The notes under the pieces: generated by a model
Seen by the model: the letters and a program-made list of their open reading frames with translations, nothing else
What the model was told of the DNA's origin: nothing
Databases searched by the model: none
Shown: in pieces, positions 5,290-40,935 of the stretch
Layout of the letters: each line of letters opens with the position of its first letter
Numbering within the stretch: position 1 is the stretch's first letter
NCBI GenBank assembly: GCA_026645935.1
Contig: JAPKMP010000009.1
Span: 1-64,000 of the forward strand
Length of the DNA: 64,000 bases
Origin: Candidatus Villigracilaceae bacterium
GTDB taxonomy: Bacteria > Chloroflexota > Anaerolineae > Anaerolineales > Villigracilaceae
Reading direction: 5' to 3'
Program-made: the position numbers and the translations under genes

Positions 5290-5363
5290 TGGGCGCTAAG
5301 GGACTCGAACCCCTGACCTTCTCGGTGTAAACGAGACGCTCTAACCAACTGAGCTAAGCGCCC
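5290..5363 (-). tRNA. tRNA-Val (anticodon UAC)
   Basis: The minus strand folds as a complete cloverleaf. The acceptor is GGGCGCT/AGCGCCC, the D arm GCTCAGTTGGTTAGAGC, the anticodon stem TCTCG/CGAGA with loop TTTACAC (anticodon TAC), and the T arm CAGGGGTTCGAACCCCTTAG. The discriminator base is A and the CCA end is not fully encoded (ACC then TA). It reads GUA and other valine codons. The integrated element begins directly at its 3' end, so the last bases are the likely attachment core. Confidence 0.95.
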
Positions 5364-31522: not shown

Positions 31523-31637
31523 GAGTTCGGAGATTATAACATTCGGGTTTAATGCGACCGCAATCTTGAATTGGACATTTACGCGATAAAATAATTTACG
31601 AAAAGGTTCCGCCCTCGTAGGATAGGAATTGCTCGAC

Positions 31638-34600
31638 ATGTCTTCCATCCCTATCAGCAAGACCAAGATCATCCTCCCGCGCCGGCGCGCTGAACTGCTC
31701 AGCCGCAAGAGGCTTCTGGACTTATTGTTCGACGCGCTGGATAAGAAACTGACCCTTTTATCCGCGCCTGCCGGATATGGGAAAACATCGCTGCTGGTGG
31801 ACTTCGCCCACCAGAGCGACCTGCCCTGCTGCTGGCTGGCTTTGGATGACCTGGACCGCGATCCGCAGCAGTTCGTGTCGTATTTCATCGCCGCCCTGTC
31901 GGAGCGTTTCCCCGCATTTGGCAGCCAGTCGAAAAGCGTGCTGGAGGCCATGAACTCCTTCGAGCAGGAAATGGAACGCCTGCTCGTCACCCTGGTCAAC
32001 GAACTTTACGAACAGGTCAAGGAACATTTTGTTTTCATCCTTGACGATTTCCATCTTTTGGACGACGTCTCCCCCATCAATGAGTTCGTCAATCGTTTCA
32101 TCCAGCTGGTGGATGATAACTGTCATCTCGTGATTTCGTCGCGCAGGCTGGCGACGCTTGAAGACATGCCTCATTTCGTTGCGCGCGAGCAGGTGAGCGG
32201 TTTGAGTTTCTCAGACCTTGTTTTCAAGCCGGAGGAACTTCAGGCATTGGCGCTTCAGAACAGCGGCGCGCAAATGACCGACGAGGAAGCCACACGGCTG
32301 ATCGAAGAATCAGAGGGCTGGATCACGGGTCTTCAATTCTCCGATTCGAATGTTCTGCGCAGCAGTTCGAAGCCCTCTCCATTCGGGAGCAAGGCAAACC
32401 TGTTTGAATATTTTGGACATCAAGTCCTGGACCGTCAGACTCCCGAACTGCGGCTATTTGTCCTGCGCACTTCATTGTTGGAGGAATTCGACGCCGCCCT
32501 TTGCGACAGCGTTCTTTCACCGCTCTATCCTGAACCGCAGGATTGGCAGTTTTGGATCAAGACCGTATCACAGAATAACCTGTTCGTCCTGCCCGTCGGT
32601 GAAGATGGACGATGGCTGCGCTACCATCATTTATTCCGCGATTTCATCTGCGAACAATTCGAACGCGAACGCCCGGAGGAAGTCCCTGCGATCTTATCGC
32701 ATCTTCAGCTGGCGTATGAAGCCATGGGCGAGTGGAGCAGGGCGCATCAAATCTGCCGCCGGAAAAATGACCTCGATGCCCTGGCTGGGATGATCGAACG
32801 GGCGAGTCTGTCCATGCTGCAAAGCGCGCACCTGACATTGGAATCCTGGCTGAGCGAACTGCCGCCCTCCCTGCTGCGGAAAAGACCGGGCTTGCTTTCC
32901 ATTCGTGGGGCGATCGCATACACAAAGGGAGATTTGCAGGAAGGCTTGGACCTGCTTTTACAATCGGAGCGGCTATTCCGCGAACAGGGGGAATCGCATG
33001 GGTTGATCGTGGCGTTGATTCGGCTCGGCTCGGCGTATCGCTTCCTGGGGGATTACGAAGCGTCCCTGCGCGATGCGGAGGAAGTGATCACCCTGACCGA
33101 AGCGAAGGACGAATGGCAGATGCTCCATGCCGATGCGCTGCGGCTGAAGGGATTGGCTTTGTATCGCCTGGGCAAGGCTGATCAGGCCGTTTCCTTCCTT
33201 GAGCGCGCTCTGGAATTGTGCCGCTTATACGATAAAGCCAATGTGCCGCTCTTATGCCTGGATACCGGCATGGCGTATCGAGCGATTGGAAATTTTTCCG
33301 AGGCTCTGAACGCTTACGAAGAAGCCCTGCAAATCTGGCGGCGTGAAGGCAATTTGTATTTGCAAGCCAGTTTGTTGAATAATCTTGGGGTCTTCCACCA
33401 TTCGCAGGGAAATTATGAAAAATCGGCACTGGCGTTTGAGGAAGGATTGCTTTGCGCTCAGCGAATTCGGGATGACCGCCTAAATGCCTTGATTTCCATT
33501 GGGTTTGGAGACCTCTACGCTGAACTGGAAGATTTCGAGATGGCCAATCTGAATTATGAGAATGCGGCTGTGATCCTTAATGGCATGGACAACCGGTTCT
33601 TGATTCACTTTTTGGGGCTATCACGCGCCAATCTGGCTCTATTGCAAAGGGACTCTTTTCTTGCCCAAAGCGCCATTGAAGAGGTTGCAGACTCGATTCG
33701 CTCGGGTAATTCGAACTTTGAGAATGGGTTGCTTGACTTAAGTTATGGACGTTTGCATTTGATGAATGGCGATACTGCCCAATCAGTGCATGCATTTATG
33801 GAAGCCCAAAAACGATTTGAATCTGAGCAGAGGGTTTCGGAAAACATCGTAACCCTTGTCTGGCTTGCGGCTGCCCGCCATCTGCAGGAAGAATACAAGG
33901 CTACATTTCAATCCCTGAGTGAAACTGTCGCGAACCGCAGGAAGATACCCCATCCTGCCCTGGTTGCCGCCCACCAGGCGAAGGATTGGCTCAAGGATCT
34001 GCAAGCTAACTCAAACAGCGGGCGTTACCTGCGTGACCTTTTTGTCCAGGCGGAGCGTCTTGGGAAATCCATCCCATCCACTCGCCGCCAACTGCGCCGT
34101 CAGGTGCGGGCAATCTCAGCCCCGACCTCCCGCCTCGTTATCGAAGCGTTTGGCAAGGTCTCTGTCAGCATAAACGGCAAACCCCTGACCTTGTCTGACT
34201 GGCAAACCCAATCCGTCCGGGATCTGTTCTTTTACTTCCTATCGGAGACCAAACCACTAACCAAGGAACAGGTCATCGAAGTGCTTTGGCGGGATGAAGA
34301 CGAGCCCGCCAAATTGAAACTCCGCTTCAAGAACGATCTCTACCGTCTGCGCCGCGCGGTTGGGCAGGATGTGATTCAATTCGTGGATAATCACTATGTA
34401 TTCAATCGCGGACTTGATTATGAATACGATGTCGAGGCGTTCGAATCCTTTGTTGCGCGCGCAAAATCATCAAGCGACCCTGTCGAAAAAATGAGTTTTT
34501 ACCGCAGGGCGGTTGGGTTGGTGCAGGGACCTTATCTAAATGAAAATTATGCAGAATGGGTGGCTCCAGATCGCGAACGCCTGCGACAGGCGTATATCGA

Positions 34601-34856
34601 AGCGCTTGTAAATCTGGCGGGCCTGCAGATCGCCCAGGCTCAGGCTCAAGTTGCGGTCATGACCTGTCAGCGTGTCATCGAAGCAGACCCCGGCAATGAG
34701 ACCGCGTATCAGCTATGGATACAGGCTTGCAGCCGTCTGGGCGATCGGGCCGGGATGACGCGGGTCTATCAGGATTACAGCGCGGCAATGAAGCGGCTTT
34801 TTCAGTTATCCCCATCCAAAGAGACGGAAGAAATCTATCGGCGATCCATGCGGTGA
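31638..34856 (+). CDS. STAND ATPase-TPR regulator with BTAD (SARP-type) domain
   Basis: 1072 residues. The N-terminal ~300 residues are a MalT-like STAND ATPase: SAPAGYGKTSLLVDF (Walker A), then FVFILDDFHLLDD (Walker B). A long superhelix of TPR repeats fills residues about 400-850. The C-terminal ~220 residues form an OmpR-like winged helix (GKPLTLSDWQTQSVRDLFFYF ... LKLRFKNDLYRLRRAV) joined to a BTAD domain. This is the layout of SARP/AfsR-like activators, with the DNA-binding part at the C-terminus. Such proteins bind tandem direct repeats just upstream of the -35/-10; such repeats lie downstream of this gene. The start at 31638 was preferred to a TTG nine bases earlier. Confidence 0.85.
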   Translation: MSSIPISKTKIILPRRRAELLSRKRLLDLLFDALDKKLTLLSAPAGYGKTSLLVDFAHQSDLPCCWLALDDLDRDPQQFVSYFIAALSERFPAFGSQSKSVLEAMNSFEQEMERLLVTLVNELYEQVKEHFVFILDDFHLLDDVSPINEFVNRFIQLVDDNCHLVISSRRLATLEDMPHFVAREQVSGLSFSDLVFKPEELQALALQNSGAQMTDEEATRLIEESEGWITGLQFSDSNVLRSSSKPSPFGSKANLFEYFGHQVLDRQTPELRLFVLRTSLLEEFDAALCDSVLSPLYPEPQDWQFWIKTVSQNNLFVLPVGEDGRWLRYHHLFRDFICEQFERERPEEVPAILSHLQLAYEAMGEWSRAHQICRRKNDLDALAGMIERASLSMLQSAHLTLESWLSELPPSLLRKRPGLLSIRGAIAYTKGDLQEGLDLLLQSERLFREQGESHGLIVALIRLGSAYRFLGDYEASLRDAEEVITLTEAKDEWQMLHADALRLKGLALYRLGKADQAVSFLERALELCRLYDKANVPLLCLDTGMAYRAIGNFSEALNAYEEALQIWRREGNLYLQASLLNNLGVFHHSQGNYEKSALAFEEGLLCAQRIRDDRLNALISIGFGDLYAELEDFEMANLNYENAAVILNGMDNRFLIHFLGLSRANLALLQRDSFLAQSAIEEVADSIRSGNSNFENGLLDLSYGRLHLMNGDTAQSVHAFMEAQKRFESEQRVSENIVTLVWLAAARHLQEEYKATFQSLSETVANRRKIPHPALVAAHQAKDWLKDLQANSNSGRYLRDLFVQAERLGKSIPSTRRQLRRQVRAISAPTSRLVIEAFGKVSVSINGKPLTLSDWQTQSVRDLFFYFLSETKPLTKEQVIEVLWRDEDEPAKLKLRFKNDLYRLRRAVGQDVIQFVDNHYVFNRGLDYEYDVEAFESFVARAKSSSDPVEKMSFYRRAVGLVQGPYLNENYAEWVAPDRERLRQAYIEALVNLAGLQIAQAQAQVAVMTCQRVIEADPGNETAYQLWIQACSRLGDRAGMTRVYQDYSAAMKRLFQLSPSKETEEIYRRSMR

Positions 34857-34892
34857 GAGCACAATCACGCCCCACAACCCAATCCTTTAGTA

Positions 34893-34918
34893 ACAGCCCG
34901 ACCGGGCTGTTTTTATTT
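34893..34918 (+). terminator. Terminator of the BTAD regulator gene
   Basis: ACAGCCC and GGGCTGT pair around a 4-base loop, followed by TTTTTATTTTC. Confidence 0.85.
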
Positions 34919-34929
34919 TCTTTCTGAAA

Positions 34930-34973
34930 CCTGTTTTGAAGCCTGTTTTGAAGCCTGGCAGGGGATATATTCA
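34930..34973 (+). promoter_or_regulatory. Three 12-bp tandem repeats with a -10-like box
   Basis: CCTGTTTTGAAG occurs twice head-to-tail, followed by a third partial copy CCTGGCAGGGG and then ATATATT. The 12-bp period is close to one helical turn. SARP/BTAD activators bind tandem direct repeats of 11-12 bp period that overlap the -35 region (family knowledge), and the BTAD gene is immediately upstream. The likely target is the peptide gene at 35007. Confidence 0.6.
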
Positions 34974-35006
34974 CCACAATCAAATTCAAAAAAAAAGGAA
35001 AATATC

Positions 35007-35150
35007 ATGAAAAACACACTTAACCACCTCGTTTTGTCCGCTTCCAAGATCAACCGCCAGCACATTCAGATGGTCTTCGTCCTCGTATCCCTCGCCATGC
35101 TCGTTCTCGGCTTGGGCGCCCCGGATGACAGCATCGGAACCAGCCGATAG
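35007..35150 (+). CDS. 47-residue membrane peptide
   Basis: M-K-N-T-L start, basic N-terminal half (SASKINRQH), one hydrophobic segment at residues about 20-38 (MVFVLVSLAMLVLGLG) and a short polar tail ending GAPDDSIGTSR. AAGGAAA lies before the ATG. The stop (TAG, 35148-35150) overlaps the GTG start of the next gene. The layout, a charged leader, a hydrophobic core and a small tail, could serve as a membrane subunit or as the precursor of an exported or processed peptide signal. Nothing in the sequence decides which. Confidence 0.65.
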   Translation: MKNTLNHLVLSASKINRQHIQMVFVLVSLAMLVLGLGAPDDSIGTSR

Positions 35151-35734
35151 TGATCCTGCTCATTGCCGTTCTGGCTGGCTTTACAACCGGAATGGTCGTG
35201 ATGTGGGCACGCCGCCAGTCCTATCGTCCTCCCGATCTTCAATACATCTGGCTGGTATTCCTCGCCTACCTGCCGCAATTCGCCATCTTATATATCCCGG
35301 GAATCCGCCAGCAGGTTTCGGACCTGTGGGCTGCTGTCCTTCTGACGGCATCGCAGCTCCTCCTGCTGGGGTTCGCCTGGCTCAACCGGAAATTGCCCGG
35401 GATGTTGATCCTGCTCCTTGGGGCGGCGCTCAACTTCGCGGTCATGACGGCGAATGGCGGTTTCATGCCAATAAGCCCACAGACAGCCAGCCGTTTTCTT
35501 ACCCGGGAAGAATTGAACGAGATTTCACTTGGGGAGCGGATCGGGATAAAAGACATCCTCCTCGAACCGCAGGATACCCGCTTCGAGATTCTAGCGGATC
35601 GTTTCCTGCCCCCAGCCTGGTCCACATATCAGGTGGCTTTCAGTCTGGGTGACGTATTTCTGGCAGCCGGCGTGTTCTGGCTGCTTGCCCGTGTGCCGGG
35701 AAAAGACACTTTACCGGAAAGGATTTTGATATGA
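35150..35734 (+). CDS. DUF5317 membrane protein
   Basis: 194 residues from a GTG that overlaps the previous stop. Four or five membrane helices are visible, the first at residues 1-20 and the last near 165-185. A conserved-looking loop NFAVMTANGGFMPISPQTA lies in the middle; this is typical of DUF5317. The role of the family is unknown. It lies between the small peptide and the NHLP-like protein, which makes a transport or processing function plausible. Ends in a 4-bp ATGA overlap with the next gene. Confidence 0.7.
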   Translation: MILLIAVLAGFTTGMVVMWARRQSYRPPDLQYIWLVFLAYLPQFAILYIPGIRQQVSDLWAAVLLTASQLLLLGFAWLNRKLPGMLILLLGAALNFAVMTANGGFMPISPQTASRFLTREELNEISLGERIGIKDILLEPQDTRFEILADRFLPPAWSTYQVAFSLGDVFLAAGVFWLLARVPGKDTLPERILI

Positions 35735-36006
35735 TCACTTCGTTTGCATATAAACCTCAATTACAAATTAAAGTCGCGCCCATGACAGCTTCAAAGGGAC
35801 TCAGTCGTGTATTCGCAGCCGCCGTGGTTAACAACCAATTCCGCGACCTGCTCCTTGAAAATCCGCGAGAGGCGTTGGTAAAAGGTTATCTCGGCGAGAC
35901 CTTTTCCCTCACCCCTGAAGAAAGCGACCTGATCGCCTCGATCCGGGCGGATTCCCTCTCCGACCTCGCAAAACAGGTGTGTGGTTCGATGTCCATCGGC
36001 GATTGA
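35731..36006 (+). CDS. NHLP-leader-like small protein (Os1348-type)
   Basis: 91 residues. The segment LSRVFAAAVVNNQFRDLLLENPREALVKGY, then FSLTPEESDLIASIRADSLSDLA, is the pattern of NHLP/Nif11-like leader domains ('Fr.lLl.dP..AL.gy.LtpeE...l..i...sl..la'). These leaders precede a core peptide in RiPP precursors, and also occur as stand-alone small proteins. The tail here is short (KQVCGSMSIGD) with one cysteine, so a core peptide is not evident. No RiPP-modifying enzyme lies in the window. Overlaps the DUF5317 gene by 4 bp. Confidence 0.55.
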   Translation: MITSFAYKPQLQIKVAPMTASKGLSRVFAAAVVNNQFRDLLLENPREALVKGYLGETFSLTPEESDLIASIRADSLSDLAKQVCGSMSIGD

Positions 36007-36010
36007 ATTG

Positions 36011-37042
36011 ATGCAGGCTGGCATTAATTCGCTCCCGCACATGACCGATTTTGAAAATTTGGAAACCACCATGAAGGCGGGTTTCCATGTCTCGGTTCTG
36101 CCCGTCCATTTGACCGCACCCGAGGAGGGATTAAAAGACCTGCTCCAAATGGCTGACGATCTCCTGTTCGTCCTCGACGAAACCGGGCGGATCGTCAATT
36201 GCAAGGCGCGCGCGGGTTCGATCTTGCACAACTTCCATGTTCGGAAGGGGTTATTCATTCGCGATATCCTTCCCGATATCATCAAGCGAAAACTTGAAAT
36301 CGCCATAGAGCAATTCAATCAATCGAAGCGGTTTACGCTTTTCGAAAGCATGCTCACCCTTCCGCCCAGCGGGATTAATTGGTATGAATTCCGTCTCATT
36401 CCAGCCCTCGAAAATCAGGTCGTGTTGTTCGTCTGGAACGTAAAAGGCTACCGAGATGCATCCCGGACGGTTCCGAATCTGCCGGTCTCCACAGAAAAAA
36501 CGCTCGAAGGCTGGTCGCGTTCACTCTACCTGCGCGACTTTGAAACCGAGGATCACACCAAGCGCGTAACCGAAATGACCCTGAAGCTTGCCAGGCGGCT
36601 CGGTCTGCCGGAAACGGAAATGGCGAACATCCGGCGCGGCGCGCAAGTCCATGACATCGGGAAGATCGCCATTCCGGACGCGATCTTATTGAAAACCGGG
36701 GAACTCACGAAAGGGGAATGGGATTTGATGCGGCGTCATCCCATGCTCGCCGTGGAATTTCTCAGGTCGATTCCGGATATCGAACCGGCGCTCTTCATCC
36801 CGCGTTATCATCATGAGAAATGGGATGGTTCCGGCTACCCCGATCATCTTGCCGGAGAGGAAATTCCGCTTGCCGCGCGCATCTTCGCTTTTGCGGATGT
36901 GTTCGATGCCCTGACCTCGGATCGTCCCTACCGCCGCGCCTGGTCGAAGGAATTTGCTCTGGAATTCATTCAGAAGGAATCGGGCAGGCATTTCGACCCG
37001 CGCCTGGCGCCCGATTTTATTCAAATGCTGCACGGCTCATAA
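36011..37042 (+). CDS. PAS and HD-GYP domain protein
   Basis: About 343 residues. The N-terminal half is a PAS-like sensor (LFVLDETGRIVNCKARAGSIL). The C-terminal half is HD-GYP: HTKRVTEMTLKLARRLG, then QVHDIGKIAIPD (HD), then YHHEKWDGSGYPDHLAGEEI (HD-GYP signature) and FADVFDALTSDRPYR. Members hydrolyse cyclic di-GMP. The start is uncertain: ATG at 36011 follows the previous stop by 4 bp, but an ATG at 36041 is equally possible. It closes the BTAD-peptide cluster and points to cyclic di-nucleotide output. Confidence 0.8.
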   Translation: MQAGINSLPHMTDFENLETTMKAGFHVSVLPVHLTAPEEGLKDLLQMADDLLFVLDETGRIVNCKARAGSILHNFHVRKGLFIRDILPDIIKRKLEIAIEQFNQSKRFTLFESMLTLPPSGINWYEFRLIPALENQVVLFVWNVKGYRDASRTVPNLPVSTEKTLEGWSRSLYLRDFETEDHTKRVTEMTLKLARRLGLPETEMANIRRGAQVHDIGKIAIPDAILLKTGELTKGEWDLMRRHPMLAVEFLRSIPDIEPALFIPRYHHEKWDGSGYPDHLAGEEIPLAARIFAFADVFDALTSDRPYRRAWSKEFALEFIQKESGRHFDPRLAPDFIQMLHGS

Positions 37043-37181: not shown

Positions 37182-37236
37182 CAGTACAAATGCCTATGCC
37201 GAAATCATTGATAAGCACGAACGGAGTGTTTACAAT
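37182..37236 (+). promoter_or_regulatory. Twin promoter 1: 19-bp box plus sigma70 core
   Basis: The box CAGTACAAATGCCTATGCC (37182-37200) is followed after 7 bp by TTGATA (37208-37213), a 17-bp spacer and TACAAT (37231-37236). The same box, the same 7-bp gap and a matching TTGACG-16-TACAAT core occur at 40696-40749. Confidence 0.8.
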
Positions 37237-37242
37237 CTGAAT

Positions 37243-37344
37243 ACAACTTTATCTGAAGACCAGCGCATCCGCTGCTCGAGGGGAACCAGATGCGGCCTGG
37301 GGATTATTGGGGTGCGCGCCGGTGAATCCACCGGCGCGCTTTTT
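37243..37344 (+). ncRNA. Candidate small RNA, about 100 nt
   Basis: Runs from the predicted start 7 bp after TACAAT to a terminator (GCGCGCCGGTG/CACCGGCGCGC, then TTTTT). Inside, CCAGCGCATC pairs with GATGCGGCCTGG around a loop containing GAGGGGAACC; GGGGA-type motifs occur in the loop. No open frame with a ribosome site is present. Part of the terminator may also serve the upstream HD-GYP gene. Confidence 0.5.
37314..37344 (+). terminator. Strong plus-strand terminator
   Basis: An 11-bp stem GCGCGCCGGTG/CACCGGCGCGC with a 4-base loop, followed by TTTTT on the plus strand only. It is 13 bp from the stop of the minus-strand kinase gene, for which it has no T-run. Confidence 0.9.
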
Positions 37345-37356
37345 GGGGCGGAAATC

Positions 37357-39603
37357 TTATTTGGGTAAATTTCGTAAAAGGTTTTTGAGTTTTGGCTTCC
37401 ATGTGATGTGAATCGCAGCCCCATGCCCGGGACGGGAGCGGATCTCCAACTCCGCGCCAAGGACATGAGCGCGATCCTTCATATTTGCCAGACCGAAATG
37501 ACGCTTCGCGATCAGGTCGTTGAGATTGGTGTTTGAATCGAAACCCCTGCCGTCGTCCTGAATGGACAGGTCCACCCGTTCGGGGGAAACGGAGCCGGAG
37601 ATCGTCAGCGCCCGGCACTCGGAGTGTTTGAGGGCGTTCTCGCAGGCTTCATGCACAATGTGGAAAAGATGCTCTTCCATCTTTTCGGGAAGCCGTTCTT
37701 CGCTGGAGCGGAGGTCGAGGGCGATGTTCACATCCGCGTGTTTCTCTTTGAGGTTTTCCACCATTTCTTCGACAGCGTATGTGAATCCATGATCGAGCAT
37801 GGGCGGGCGCAGGTTGTTGATGATCTCGCGAAGGCGTTTTTTGAGGTCTTCGTAGTCGGACTGAAATGAAGGGGGAAGGTTCTTTGGGTCGAGCTTGTTA
37901 TGAATGTTGGCGAGTTTGCCCAGCACTTTGTCGTGCAGGTCGCGAGAGATGCGTGTGCGCTCGCTCTCGATGCTTTCGAATTCGGACTGGTAGAAATTTC
38001 GGAGCAGGTCGGATTGAAGGATGTTGCTCAGGGCGATGGCGGTCTGATTCGCAAGGGATTGCAGGATGGGAATCTCGACCTGGGGGTAGAGATCGTCGGG
38101 GTCTCGCCTTCCGAGTAACCAGAAGCCGAGGATTTTGTCACCCACTTTGAGCGGGAGGATGAGGCGCAGCCAGCCCTCATCCGGCGGAAGGTTTGGGATG
38201 TAACGCCCGGCTTTTTGAGTCAGAACGTCGAAGTCGAACGGTTCATTCGGGACCTCTTTGGCGAGGAGGACACCCAGGGTTTTTTCCCGCGCCTGGAGGA
38301 ATGCGTATTGACGGACGAGCAGGCTGGGAAAGACTTCGTTTTCGAGCATGGCAAGCAGGCTGGGGAGGCTGTCGCTGACAGAAATGCGGCTGGAGAAAGT
38401 TTCAAGGAGATGCCGGTGGGGAAGTTTGATGCCGAAGATGTTCTTTTCGATGAAAGCTTCGAAGCGAGGGAACCTGCTGATGGAAAACGCGGACGCGACC
38501 AGCGGGAGGATGATCGCCAGAAGAGCGGAAATTTCTCTGGGGAGGAAAACCTCCACATGGGCGAAAATGACCAGGATCGTTCCCAAAAGGATCAGGAAGG
38601 CGAATATCGAAATGAAGCGGTTTGCCCGCGCCTCCATCCCTCCCAATTGGGCGCGAAATATCAGGTAAAGATATGCGGCGGGCATTAAGATAAAGGCAAT
38701 TAAAGCCAACGGCGCCGAGGCGGGCACCAAGTCGAACAACCCTGTCACGCCAACGAAAATCAATGGAAGAACGGCAAGAAAGGTGGAAAGCGCCAGCAAG
38801 CCGATCTGGCGTCTTTGCGCGGGGCGAAGGATGAAGTGCAATAGCAGCAGGGTGAAACTCCCGCCCAGCGCGAGAATGATTGCCAGATAAAACAAATTTC
38901 TTGGGAGGAGTTGAATCAATTCTCCAACGGTCATCAAACCGGCGAATGAATAAAGAATGATGCTAGAGATCCTTGGCAGCCGGAAAAGAGGCTGGGGGAA
39001 GTTCCAATGCAGGTGAAGATAAACCGGCAGAATGAGCCATGCAAAAGCGTGAAAGAGAAGAGAACTGCCAAGCACCCGCCACGTGGAGATCGCGCCGACC
39101 ATGAGCCAGAGTCCGGTGAGGTGGTTGGAAGCGATCAATAATCGCCAGAGAACATTGCGCGGCCGGATGAACATCTCGACGAACGCGCCGAAGAACCAGT
39201 AGATATAAGAGAACCAGAAAATGTTGAACAGCCGCCCGCGGAACCCAACAAGGTCGAAACCTGGGATTTCCCAATCAACAGGGATTTTTTCTCCGTTCCT
39301 TTCGACGAGGATGGGAAGGACATCCCCCTTCCGCAAATCCGGCGTGAAAAGAGGCAATGTTGCGCTCTTTTTATAATCTTCGAAAGTGACATCCCCTACT
39401 TTTATAAGGACATCCCCCGGTTGGAGGGTGATGCCGCCCGGGCTGTAAACATCCAGGATAACGCCGCTGTTCGGGTCGAAATACAAACCTGTGTATGGGA
39501 CGCGCGCGAATATTCCCACGGTGAACCCCAGGAGGATAACGAGCACCACCATGGAAATGGGAATCTCCGAAATTTTCCAGCGGTAGGTGGAGTGAAGGTT
39601 CAT
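37357..39603 (-). CDS. Histidine kinase with N-terminal PDZ domain and seven membrane helices
   Basis: 748 residues. A first membrane helix at about 15-35 is followed by a PDZ-like domain (GVILDVYSPGG, QPGDVLIKVGDVTFEDY) at about 45-110 that should face the outside, then about eight membrane helices to residue 370, a GAF-like region (about 395-530), a HisKA_3 dimerisation segment with the phosphorylated His557 in ERTRISRDLHDKVLGKLANI, and a HATPase_c domain (EACENALKH, DDGRGFD, GLANMKDRA). This is the NarL/DesK type of kinase. Its partner regulator lies upstream. AGGAAAA is the ribosome site; TATAAT lies about 45 bp before the ATG on the minus strand. Confidence 0.88.
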   Translation of the reverse strand: MNLHSTYRWKISEIPISMVVLVILLGFTVGIFARVPYTGLYFDPNSGVILDVYSPGGITLQPGDVLIKVGDVTFEDYKKSATLPLFTPDLRKGDVLPILVERNGEKIPVDWEIPGFDLVGFRGRLFNIFWFSYIYWFFGAFVEMFIRPRNVLWRLLIASNHLTGLWLMVGAISTWRVLGSSLLFHAFAWLILPVYLHLHWNFPQPLFRLPRISSIILYSFAGLMTVGELIQLLPRNLFYLAIILALGGSFTLLLLHFILRPAQRRQIGLLALSTFLAVLPLIFVGVTGLFDLVPASAPLALIAFILMPAAYLYLIFRAQLGGMEARANRFISIFAFLILLGTILVIFAHVEVFLPREISALLAIILPLVASAFSISRFPRFEAFIEKNIFGIKLPHRHLLETFSSRISVSDSLPSLLAMLENEVFPSLLVRQYAFLQAREKTLGVLLAKEVPNEPFDFDVLTQKAGRYIPNLPPDEGWLRLILPLKVGDKILGFWLLGRRDPDDLYPQVEIPILQSLANQTAIALSNILQSDLLRNFYQSEFESIESERTRISRDLHDKVLGKLANIHNKLDPKNLPPSFQSDYEDLKKRLREIINNLRPPMLDHGFTYAVEEMVENLKEKHADVNIALDLRSSEERLPEKMEEHLFHIVHEACENALKHSECRALTISGSVSPERVDLSIQDDGRGFDSNTNLNDLIAKRHFGLANMKDRAHVLGAELEIRSRPGHGAAIHITWKPKLKNLLRNLPK

Positions 39604-39959
39604 GCCGGTTTTCCTGCGGATATTCGATAAAGTGAAAAGAGGTGATCTTATTATAGCTGAGGATAAACAAAATATGACTCACCCCGAAACTATTCATTGT
39701 ATCCTTAATTTTCAAACACTTAACATGCCATGCTGAGCAAAACGAAACATCTCTACGAACGTACCAGAAACCCTGCGCGGCGCTGATGACGCCGCGCAGG
39801 GTGACAATTTGTAAGGTGACTTGTTTTACTCTGAATAATATAGGAAAGGAGGTGGATCGATTATAGCGAGGTTAAGAAAGGGAACGGGTCGAATCATCTT
39901 CAACCCGCTATGATTTATTCGTTATCCGAGATCGAGCACAGAATTTAATTGTCCTAATC
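39604..39959. other. 356-bp gap: kinase promoter and a dispersed hairpin repeat
   Basis: On the minus strand TTTATCC, then TATAAT near 39650, serves the kinase. The rest holds a repeat with GCTGAGCAAAACGAAACATC, and a perfect 12-bp-stem hairpin CCCTGCGCGGCG (39771-39782) with its complement (39790-39801). No credible gene is visible. Confidence 0.5.
39729..39808. repeat. Dispersed repeat with 12-bp hairpin
   Basis: GCTGAGCAAAACGAAACATC followed by CCCTGCGCGGCG ... CGCCGCGCAGGG. The first part is a repeat type ('gagcgaagcgaaacatctc') common between genes of environmental bacteria. Confidence 0.5.
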
Positions 39960-40631
39960 TTACGGAAACGGCGTGATCAGCCCCTTTTGCCTTGCCTTCG
40001 CGATGGCGTCTGCCCGCGTCCTTGCCCCGAGTTTGATGTATGCTCCGGATAGCAGTGTGCGAAACGCTGAGTGTGTAATGTGCATTTTTTTGGCGAGCAG
40101 CATGCTTTTATCCCCGGGAAATGCGGCACTTAACGACAATGCCTCCAACTGGCGCGGACTCAACTGCTTTCCGTTTTCCTTCTCCAGTTGTTTGCCATAT
40201 ATGACGCCTGCCTCCTCGCTGAGGTAAACCCCGCCTTCCGCCACAGCCTTGATGATGGCGGGCAGGTTGGCGTAGGCATTCTGGTCGTCTTTAAGGATGT
40301 AACCATTCGCGCCAGCCGCCATTACCTCGCGGATTAAACCTCGCTCCGCATGCATGCTGATGACCAGAATGTTGAGGTTTGAATGTTCTTCCAATAATTT
40401 CGGTATGACATGCAGGATCGGATAGGAATTGCGGTTCTCCGCCGAGGTTGGCACGCTGACGTCCAATATCAGCACGTTCACTTCGCCCTTTTGTAAGACC
40501 GGCTCCAACAGGTCTGCAACCCCCATGGTCGCGGCGATCTCGATTTCAGGGTCGCTGCCCAGTTTGGATAAATATCCTTCAACAGTGCTTGGGTGATCGT
40601 CCAGGATTGCGACGCGTATCTTCGATTCCAT
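39960..40631 (-). CDS. LuxR/NarL-type response regulator
   Basis: 223 residues. The receiver domain has DDHPS (acidic pair) near residue 10, LILDVSVP with the phospho-acceptor Asp near 57, and SMHAERG / ILKDDQ for the switch residues. The C-terminal LuxR-type HTH is divergent (LSPRQLEALSLSAAFPGDKSMLLAKKMHITHSAFRTLLSGAYIKLGARTRADAI region). It pairs with the PDZ kinase. It is transcribed away from the twin promoter 2, and the 19-bp box lies directly upstream of its own -35 (TTGAAA) on the minus strand, which suggests autoregulation. Confidence 0.85.
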   Translation of the reverse strand: MESKIRVAILDDHPSTVEGYLSKLGSDPEIEIAATMGVADLLEPVLQKGEVNVLILDVSVPTSAENRNSYPILHVIPKLLEEHSNLNILVISMHAERGLIREVMAAGANGYILKDDQNAYANLPAIIKAVAEGGVYLSEEAGVIYGKQLEKENGKQLSPRQLEALSLSAAFPGDKSMLLAKKMHITHSAFRTLLSGAYIKLGARTRADAIAKARQKGLITPFP

Positions 40632-40695
40632 AAAACATGCTCCCTCATTGACTCACCATCAGGGTAACAGAAAGTATGGTCCGTTTCAATAGGTA

Positions 40696-40749
40696 CAGTA
40701 CAAATGCCTATGCCCTGTCCATTGACGATGCAAATGGACTCCATACAAT
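40696..40749 (+). promoter_or_regulatory. Twin promoter 2: 19-bp box plus sigma70 core
   Basis: Box CAGTACAAATGCCTATGCC (40696-40714), 7 bp, TTGACG (40722-40727), 16-bp spacer, TACAAT (40744-40749). Identical box and identical spacing to promoter 1. Read on the minus strand, the box sits a few bases upstream of the TTGAAA -35 of the response-regulator gene. Confidence 0.8.
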
Positions 40750-40755
40750 AGATAC

Positions 40756-40935
40756 CATAACCGATAACCGGTTATGGCGGAAATGGGTTATTCGTCTCAT
40801 ATCCGTGAGAACAGACAGGGGGCGGCGAACAGGGCGCGTCCCAACCTCTGGGCGGCTCGAACGCCAGGGGACTGGCGGAGGAGGCTGGGCGCGCTGAAGG
40901 GGAGAGGTTAAATCCTGGTAAATCGTTTTACTTAC
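40756..40935 (+). ncRNA. Candidate structured RNA from twin promoter 2
   Basis: The transcript would start near 40756. It begins with a hairpin (CCATAACCG/CGGTTATGG) and later has AACCTCT (about 40840) pairing with AGAGGTT (about 40908), with inner GC-rich stems and several GGA motifs. No ribosome site plus start codon gives a plausible protein. The 3' end is not defined; there is only a weak GTAAA/TTTAC stem near 40930. Low-confidence call. Confidence 0.4.

Follow-up and report, generated by a model that had tools for sequence, protein, structure and literature searches.

What does a two-component system control when the promoter-like sites on either side of it point into stretches of DNA without a gene? 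This question is raised by a stretch of 64,000 nucleotides from a Candidatus Villigracilaceae bacterium (assembly GCA_026645935.1, contig JAPKMP010000009.1, positions 1-64,000 of the forward strand; this whole stretch is called the window below), in which a histidine kinase gene and a response regulator (RR) gene lie between two copies of a 19-bp box. From the conservation of this box, of its spacing and of the structured RNAs that follow it, we conclude that a ComP/ComA-like two-component system of Anaerolineales probably controls non-coding effector RNAs, here called type A and type B, through a promoter that carries the box. The features on which this argument leans are the following, in window positions.

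40696..40714, plus strand: box 2, CAGTACAAATGCCTATGCC, candidate distal RR site, located by exact search and by the box score of relatives
40716..40723, plus strand: proximal half-site TGTCCATT, 11 bp after the distal TGCCTAT and overlapping the -35
40722..40749, plus strand: putative promoter TTGACG-16-TACAAT of the type A RNA, facing away from the RR gene, from a promoter scan and relatives
40756..40905, plus strand: type A structured RNA, with predicted start and 3' end, a core model match at 40817-40898 and extra 5' hairpins at 40755-40805
39960..40631, minus strand: RR of NarL/LuxR type, ComA-like, with a Response_reg domain
37357..39603, minus strand: histidine kinase, ComP-like, with a first transmembrane segment (TM1), a PDZ-like region, nine more TM-like peaks, a GAF-like region, HisKA_3 and HATPase_c
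37182..37200, plus strand: box 1, before the type B RNA, with an exact-core counterpart in genome G100 only
37208..37236, plus strand: putative promoter TTGATA-17-TACAAT of the type B RNA, with a weak proximal half-site

Results

The box and its link to the response regulator

An initial annotation of this DNA had reported the box at these two places only, and this is confirmed: both exact copies of CAGTACAAATGCCTATGCC are on the plus strand, no third copy with up to three mismatches occurs in the window (0 in 100 shuffles), and the two are also the only exact copies in the whole 4.33-Mb genome (G000, 98.7% complete), where a search at up to three mismatches adds a single site, with three mismatches. 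A search of relatives showed the 15-mer core of the box, CAGTACAAATGYCTA, to be conserved upstream of the RR in Anaerolineales. In our family comparison set of 152 genomes (G handles), 57 of which carry an RR homologue at E<=1e-15, the exact core gave 32 matches in 24 genomes, versus 2 for the reversed pattern. All 24 belong to the 57 RR-positive genomes (Fisher 1e-12, a value that is no clean probability). By our reading of the coordinates, 22 of the 32 cores are on the strand opposite to the RR, a short way upstream of it; the remaining ones are two downstream of RR-like genes (G002, partial; G063:C22), the two extra boxes of G000 and G100, and six elsewhere in G058, G063 and G150.

A separate protein-alignment scan yielded 80 loci, of which the 63 of Chloroflexota type (L167-L229) were used and 17 distant ones (L230-L246) left out. 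A box score of at least 25 of 31.5 was reached upstream of the RR in 54 of these 63 loci, compared with a mean of 0.16 and a maximum of 2 of 63 for shuffled upstreams (100 rounds) and 0 for reversed upstreams. Contig ends of the metagenome-assembled genomes hide some neighbours, and one locus, L215 (JACQXV010000156.1), is labelled Woesearchaeota and bears a Chloroflexota-type RR/kinase locus; it is probably mis-binned.

Exact-core boxes at both ends of the kinase/RR pair were found in G000 and G100 only, among all 152 genomes. As such, the initially described arrangement of twin box promoters flanking the pair holds for the window and G100, whereas the part conserved in relatives is a single box promoter divergent from the RR. 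Boxes also stand upstream of genes for large secreted-looking proteins in L104 and L105 (G058), in L103 (G063) and, with three mismatches, in L122 (G028), partly as judged by eye, pointing to a wider regulon in some genomes. In G017 (L088) and G050 (L109), what follows the RR-box promoter is a gene and not an RNA; from its translation we call it, by eye, spoVS-like. Furthermore, in L108 (G114), L107 (G047) and L068 (6826-7038, G106), a box-like site or the RNA is followed by a member of a small protein family, with sequences such as GEYGEVHIIVQRGELRYINKVES.

Promoter architecture

Both -35/-10 hexamer pairs begin 7 bp after their respective box and face gene-free stretches, just as first annotated. 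A bare promoter scan found 3 sites where 2.7 were expected, which is not above chance, and the case for the promoter sites therefore rests on their conservation in relatives. There, the -10 lies exactly 50 bp after the TGYCTAT of the box in 22 of 56 promoters, where the largest pile-up in 2000 shuffles was 7. A half-site TGYCTATT (at least 6 of 8 positions) follows the first TGYCTAT at 21 bp in 32 of 57 promoters and at 20 or 22 bp in 8 more, and TGYCTATT, at the same threshold, is placed exactly 29 bp before the -10 in 34 of 56. The type A promoter of the window is about one helical turn shorter than those of relatives, with 11 bp between the half-sites and 40 bp to the -10; for the 19 of 56 promoters that do not belong to the main spacing class, helical phasing is weak (uniform draws did as well 153 times in 5000).

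The distance from box to RR start, on the other hand, varies from 30 to 216 bp. Since the box keeps a fixed distance from the outward -10 but not from the RR start, it appears to be tied to the divergent promoter, and we read it as an activator site of that promoter, with the proximal site overlapping the -35. The box had also been placed just upstream of the RR's own -35. A TTGAAA does lie on the minus strand about 6 bp from box 2, but no good -10 to accompany it was seen by eye.

Type A RNA

The second promoter had been said to lead into a strongly folding region, and indeed the strand at 40755-40904 folds at -65 kcal/mol (z -3.5), with 0 of 200 shuffles as good. The structure is conserved: across 20 aligned sequences, 95% of the cells are paired and 18 of 23 pairs show double changes, neither of which was reached in 500 shuffles, and sliding the pairing partner destroys the signal. 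The only measure that shuffles did reach was that of further pair types (15 of 500). Locus L080 is included in alignment A1 and not in A2, L089, with its start misplaced, is in neither, and L069 and L083, which have no inner hairpin, were retained. The core of the window RNA alone folds exactly as the consensus. GGGGA occurs in 17 of the 20 core sequences, and the stretch before the stem is G-rich, in many cases GGGGAAAGGGGATAGGG, but GGA is not a conserved feature of the hairpin loop. Where the RNA is expected to start, the window carries a perfect 9-bp inverted repeat, CCATAACCG/CGGTTATGG (40755-40777).

The type A model has matches upstream of the RR in 19 of the 63 named loci and in 27 of the 152 genomes, 25 of which have an RR match. 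Matches outside the building set include G075, G113, G119, G122, G126 and a second copy in G105. In five genomes (G099, G026, G124, G102 and G135) type A is directly followed by type B, and in G126, G122 and, by eye, G105 it follows an HD-GYP gene. In more distant relatives the RNAs appear, by eye, to be shorter, with G tracts and a terminator. Neither type A nor type B had a match in Rfam 15, searched at gathering scores for the window and at E<=1 for 12 relatives' loci; the sole listing in the latter was a miRNA family (E 0.89) away from the RNA. The one gathering-level match in the window is a tRNA gene at 5290-5363 on the minus strand.

Type B RNA and its operon

The RNA behind box 1 and the genes upstream of it are arranged as follows.

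37242..37345, plus strand: type B structured RNA, a hairpin with the loop GAGGGGAA, then a terminator hairpin (37314-37339) and a T tract
35981..37042, plus strand: HD-GYP gene, at the stop codon of which type B normally begins in relatives
35731..36006, plus strand: gene for a 91-residue peptide, Os1348-family NHLP-clan-like (profile match below cut-off)
35150..35734, plus strand: gene for a DUF5317 protein (profile match), adjoining the peptide gene

The stretch 37243-37345 folds with a z of -2.3, and 5 of 200 shuffles were as good. The strong terminator said to end this RNA is there as a hairpin with a T run, although terminator-like sites as a class are at chance in the region (5 versus 4.9 expected). 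In an alignment of 35 rows, 96.1% of cells are paired and 15 of 18 pairs are changed on both sides (0 of 500 shuffles), values that lean towards the model because the alignment was fitted to it. This alignment (A3) was used in place of a MAFFT alignment of trimmed sequences, which misplaced a stem and was dropped; two of its rows, L283 and the antisense row of L255, are poor. The motif [AG]GGGGA is present in the loop of 31 of the 35 rows.

Type B was found 38 times, in 32 of the 152 genomes. Thirty of the 32 non-training matches were examined, and in 28 of these the RNA starts no more than about 40 bp from the end of an HD-GYP gene or, failing that, of an NHLP-like peptide gene (some by eye), the exceptions being G123 and a weak second match in G112. 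An exact-core box before type B alone occurs in G000 and G100 only. The initial view of the first transcript as a box-driven RNA accordingly does not extend to most other genomes, where type B directly follows the HD-GYP or peptide gene and no such box precedes it.

The genes upstream form part of a cluster at 31629-37042 of the window, which comprises a BTAD/TPR regulator, the DUF5317 protein, the NHLP-like peptide and the HD-GYP gene. The latter three recur in relatives with a type B RNA at the 3' end, and the cluster is possibly a peptide signalling operon.

Kinase, response regulator and signal genes of relatives

That a kinase and an RR lie between the boxes stands, on the minus strand and with HATPase_c, HisKA_3 and Response_reg domains, and with a PDZ-like region in the kinase. 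In the RR, Pfam gives Response_reg at 2.2e-9 and GerE only at 0.068, below cut-off, and no LytTR match at E<=1. All of its NCBIfam matches are below cut-off, NarL-family regulators leading, and it scores 31.1 bits against the GacA/UvrY model NF007018, the cut-off of which is 280. The hydropathy profile of the kinase shows 10 peaks above 1.4, two of which reach 1.42 and 1.50; a gap sets the first apart from the others. This gap region was modelled with a mean predicted local distance difference test (pLDDT) score of 75, and its Foldseek hits are mostly HtrA/Deg-type PDZ proteins among the 50 listed of 398, the best E being 0.0047 and none of the listed hits reaching 0.001. Pfam finds no PDZ match in the window's own kinase and PDZ_2 in a homologue at E 0.0018, below cut-off. 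We read this as an extracytoplasmic PDZ-like region between the first two TM-like peaks.

Many relatives carry a polyprenyl-synthetase gene between kinase and RR (PF00348, 1.4e-16 in L064), and the ComQ-like proteins show two Asp-rich motifs, one DDMLD-like and one HDD (12 aligned). Before this gene, 22 of 26 loci examined have an open reading frame (ORF) of 48-68 residues, which follows a Shine-Dalgarno-like site (matching 4 to 6 of 6) and encodes a C-terminal W-x-x-W. These ComX-like ORFs were selected for Trp in the last 16 residues, and 2 of 28 loci were skipped for their layout. Alignment A5 comprises twenty of them, with M, F, W and W invariant; the L207 ORF was left out, and that of L168, identical to L167, was not repeated. 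The peptides gave no Pfam match at E<=10 (6 tested) and no convincing NCBIfam model (3 tested); we call the genes comX-like and comQ-like for their position, size, Trp and enzyme family. In relatives, comX-comQ lie on the strand opposite to kinase and RR.

The kinase leader

Upstream of the kinase, the window holds two copies of a further conserved element.

39638..39655, minus strand: kinase promoter -10 and presumed mRNA start, TATAATAAGATCACCTCT, with an anti-Shine-Dalgarno-like leader
39845..39865, minus strand: second copy of the leader element, TATAATCGATCCACCTCCTTT, 262 bp before the kinase start

Of 59 upstream regions, 23 keep at least 13 of the 15 positions of the promoter-leader TATAATnnnAYCACCTCC(TTTC). 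Its exact pattern, TATAATNNNNNCACCTCCTTT, has 18 matches in 18 of the 152 genomes, whereas the reversed pattern has none. Every one of the 18 is on the kinase strand, 48-262 bp ahead of the kinase start. An anti-Shine-Dalgarno-like AYCACCTCCTTTC is conserved directly after the TATAAT of the kinase in the window and L167-L229; the start of the kinase mRNA would thereby presumably copy the 3' end of 16S rRNA.

Discussion

So what would this two-component system do? Starting from what the DNA itself holds, that is the box, its conserved spacing, the RNA structures and the neighbouring genes, we infer the following chain. Upon a signal, the PDZ/ten-helix kinase would phosphorylate the NarL-type RR, which would then bind the direct repeat of distal CAGTACAAATGYCTA and proximal TGYCTATT overlapping the -35, and switch on the promoter that faces away from the RR gene. 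The product of transcription would be a stand-alone structured RNA: type A, type A followed by type B in some relatives, or shorter G-rich RNAs (by eye) in others. In G000 and G100, a second copy of the box would have brought type B, which in other genomes ends the HD-GYP/peptide operon, into the same circuit. With their GGGGA-type motifs, the RNAs may act post-transcriptionally, either by titrating a protein that binds RNA or by base-pairing to pyrimidine-rich leaders, the leader of the kinase mRNA being one example. Because the box goes together with the RR in relatives and keeps a fixed spacing to promoters that in many of them lead into structured RNA, activation of small RNAs by the RR through an upstream box, as the initial annotation had suggested, appears to be the best reading; the parallel to Gac systems that it drew does not amount to kinship, as discussed below.

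Several observations weigh against this reading. The exact 15-mer is not found in 33 of the 57 RR-positive genomes, counts from related genomes are not independent, and co-occurrence points no more to the RR than to other genes of its cassette. The box promoter precedes the spoVS-like gene in G017 and G050, and apparently coding sequence in L099, L101 and L118. The 19 of 63 loci that match the type A model come mostly from genomes used to build it, and the output of the box promoter in the other loci was judged by eye only. Two of the 27 type A genomes are without an RR match, in G122 the RR match is distant (31%, on another contig), in G093 the type A match is weak and unlinked, and the second type A copy of G105 has no exact box. 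In the window itself, no terminator was found for type A, and the lowest-energy fold of the full 150-nt RNA has an outer stem unlike the consensus. Twelve genomes have type B but no RR match; two of these, G116 and G117, do have the kinase. Neither comX nor comQ was convincingly found in the window's genome: the search for the former gave only an E 0.22 match with 3 stops, and the latter is missing from the locus and matched elsewhere at only 29% identity. Finally, duplexes between the RNA and the kinase leader range from -10.5 to -25.9 kcal/mol in the 20 loci computed (L223 has no leader), but are no stronger than with dinucleotide-type shuffled RNAs (11 of 200 at best, in L208), both strands being compositionally skewed. 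Pairing of the GGGG stretches with the leader is for this reason only a hypothesis, for which L173 is one suggestive case: there, the leader has diverged to CCTATCTTC and can form 9 bp with GGGGATAGG in the RNA (paired segments GGGGAUAGG/CCUAUCUUC).

The box might instead serve mainly the RR gene, as an autoregulatory or repressor site, with the divergent RNA as a by-product. Its position, with the RR start on one side and the RNA promoter on the other, fits this, and in some close relatives a TTTCAA (which reads TTGAAA on the opposite strand) is kept beside it, as seen by eye. Such a role, however, would leave unexplained why its distance is fixed to the outward -10 and not to the RR, why boxes also stand before unlinked genes and before type B, pointing downstream, and why the structure of the divergent RNA is itself conserved, and we regard it as quite improbable. 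A different objection is that the RNAs are cis elements of neighbouring genes, as 3' untranslated region, terminator or leader, and do not act in trans. The position of type B at the end of the HD-GYP or peptide gene, that of type A after HD-GYP in three genomes, and a gene downstream of the RNA in some genomes, which we named secA-like, could be taken in this way. Yet in the window and G100 a convergent gene follows type A, and type B is preceded by a separate promoter-like site. The secA-like gene is served, by eye, by a TATAAT of its own, and the loop motif of type B goes beyond what a terminator needs. On balance, we consider a cis role unlikely.

GGA-containing motifs in loops and single strands, together with a two-component system, an RNA and an upstream box, recall a Gac/Rsm-type circuit, in which the RNAs would sequester a CsrA-family protein. 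This is scarcely probable: CsrA is absent from the bacterium's own nearly complete genome and present in only 14 of the 152 family genomes, unrelated to the presence of the RR (Fisher p 1.0), and the type A hairpin loop does not keep a GGA, although an unrelated protein could possibly take CsrA's role. Some short ORFs overlap the RNAs, which would fit mRNAs for small peptides. Core lengths of 62-97 nt, however, differ by non-multiples of three, the stems covary, and no common ORF was seen, without a formal test; for the core lengths and covarying stems, we do not favour this interpretation and give it very little probability.

Compared with the control of effector RNAs by the kinase/RR pair, a more far-reaching proposal is doubtful. 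It would hold that isoprenyl-peptide (ComX-like) quorum sensing exists in Chloroflexota with the divergent RNA as its main output and with feedback by G-rich pairing to the AYCACCUCCUUUC of the kinase mRNA, and that the window species lost the signal genes but not the receiver, and drew a second RNA into the system from the 3' end of the neighbouring peptide/HD-GYP operon. If true, the control of structured RNAs by the kinase/RR pair would extend a rare type of gene control to another phylum, and would place a peptide quorum-sensing architecture with an RNA effector in a phylum of largely uncultured bacteria. At the least, the locus provides two RNA families outside Rfam 15, a candidate binding box as a search key for regulons and a candidate pheromone family, and it suggests that an RNA from the 3' end of an operon can enter a second regulon by gaining a promoter.

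Comparison with known systems

GacS/GacA-Rsm systems combine a response regulator and an upstream box with stand-alone RNAs that carry GGA-containing motifs. The Gac box is unlike the box described here, and membership was rejected on account of a genome without CsrA and an RR that fails the GacA model. In the VirR/VR-RNA system of Clostridium, a two-component regulator of LytTR type acts on paired boxes, about two helical turns apart, before a regulatory RNA; the RR here is not of this regulator type.

In its proteins, the locus points to the ComQXPA system. According to PMC9620489, Bacillus ComP has an extracellular PDZ domain between TM1 and TM2 and ten TM segments, a layout matched by the kinase here (PDZ-like region, ten TM-like peaks, HisKA_3/HATPase_c); a NarL-type RR is also common to both systems. 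In relatives only, the small ORF with C-terminal Trp and the polyprenyl-synthetase gene add to the likeness, as judged from a 2014 census (PMC4008528). The census requires four adjacent genes on one strand, whereas comX-comQ are here on the opposite strand, and the conserved direct output is here an RNA. As the kinase and RR fit, comX-like and comQ-like genes occur in relatives only and the gene order is unlike, we file the system as ComQXPA-like and not as a member. The census reports no comQXPA-like locus outside Firmicutes; a 2022 survey (PMC8895600) reports the kinase-regulator pair in chloroflexi. Among the literature matches listed, none describes, by title or abstract, a Chloroflexota example of a ComX-like system with RNA output.

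By its layout, and not by comparison of the RNAs, the locus resembles agr/RNAIII of Staphylococcus, for which PMC4227749 describes a peptide-sensing pair, a regulator on direct repeats and a divergent promoter of a regulatory RNA. It differs in that agr has a LytTR regulator and a thiolactone peptide where the present system has a NarL-type RR, and in that the proximal site here overlaps the -35. As such, the most economical account of the locus would be an agr-like logic carried out with ComP/ComA-like parts: a signal, a kinase, an RR and a divergent effector RNA.

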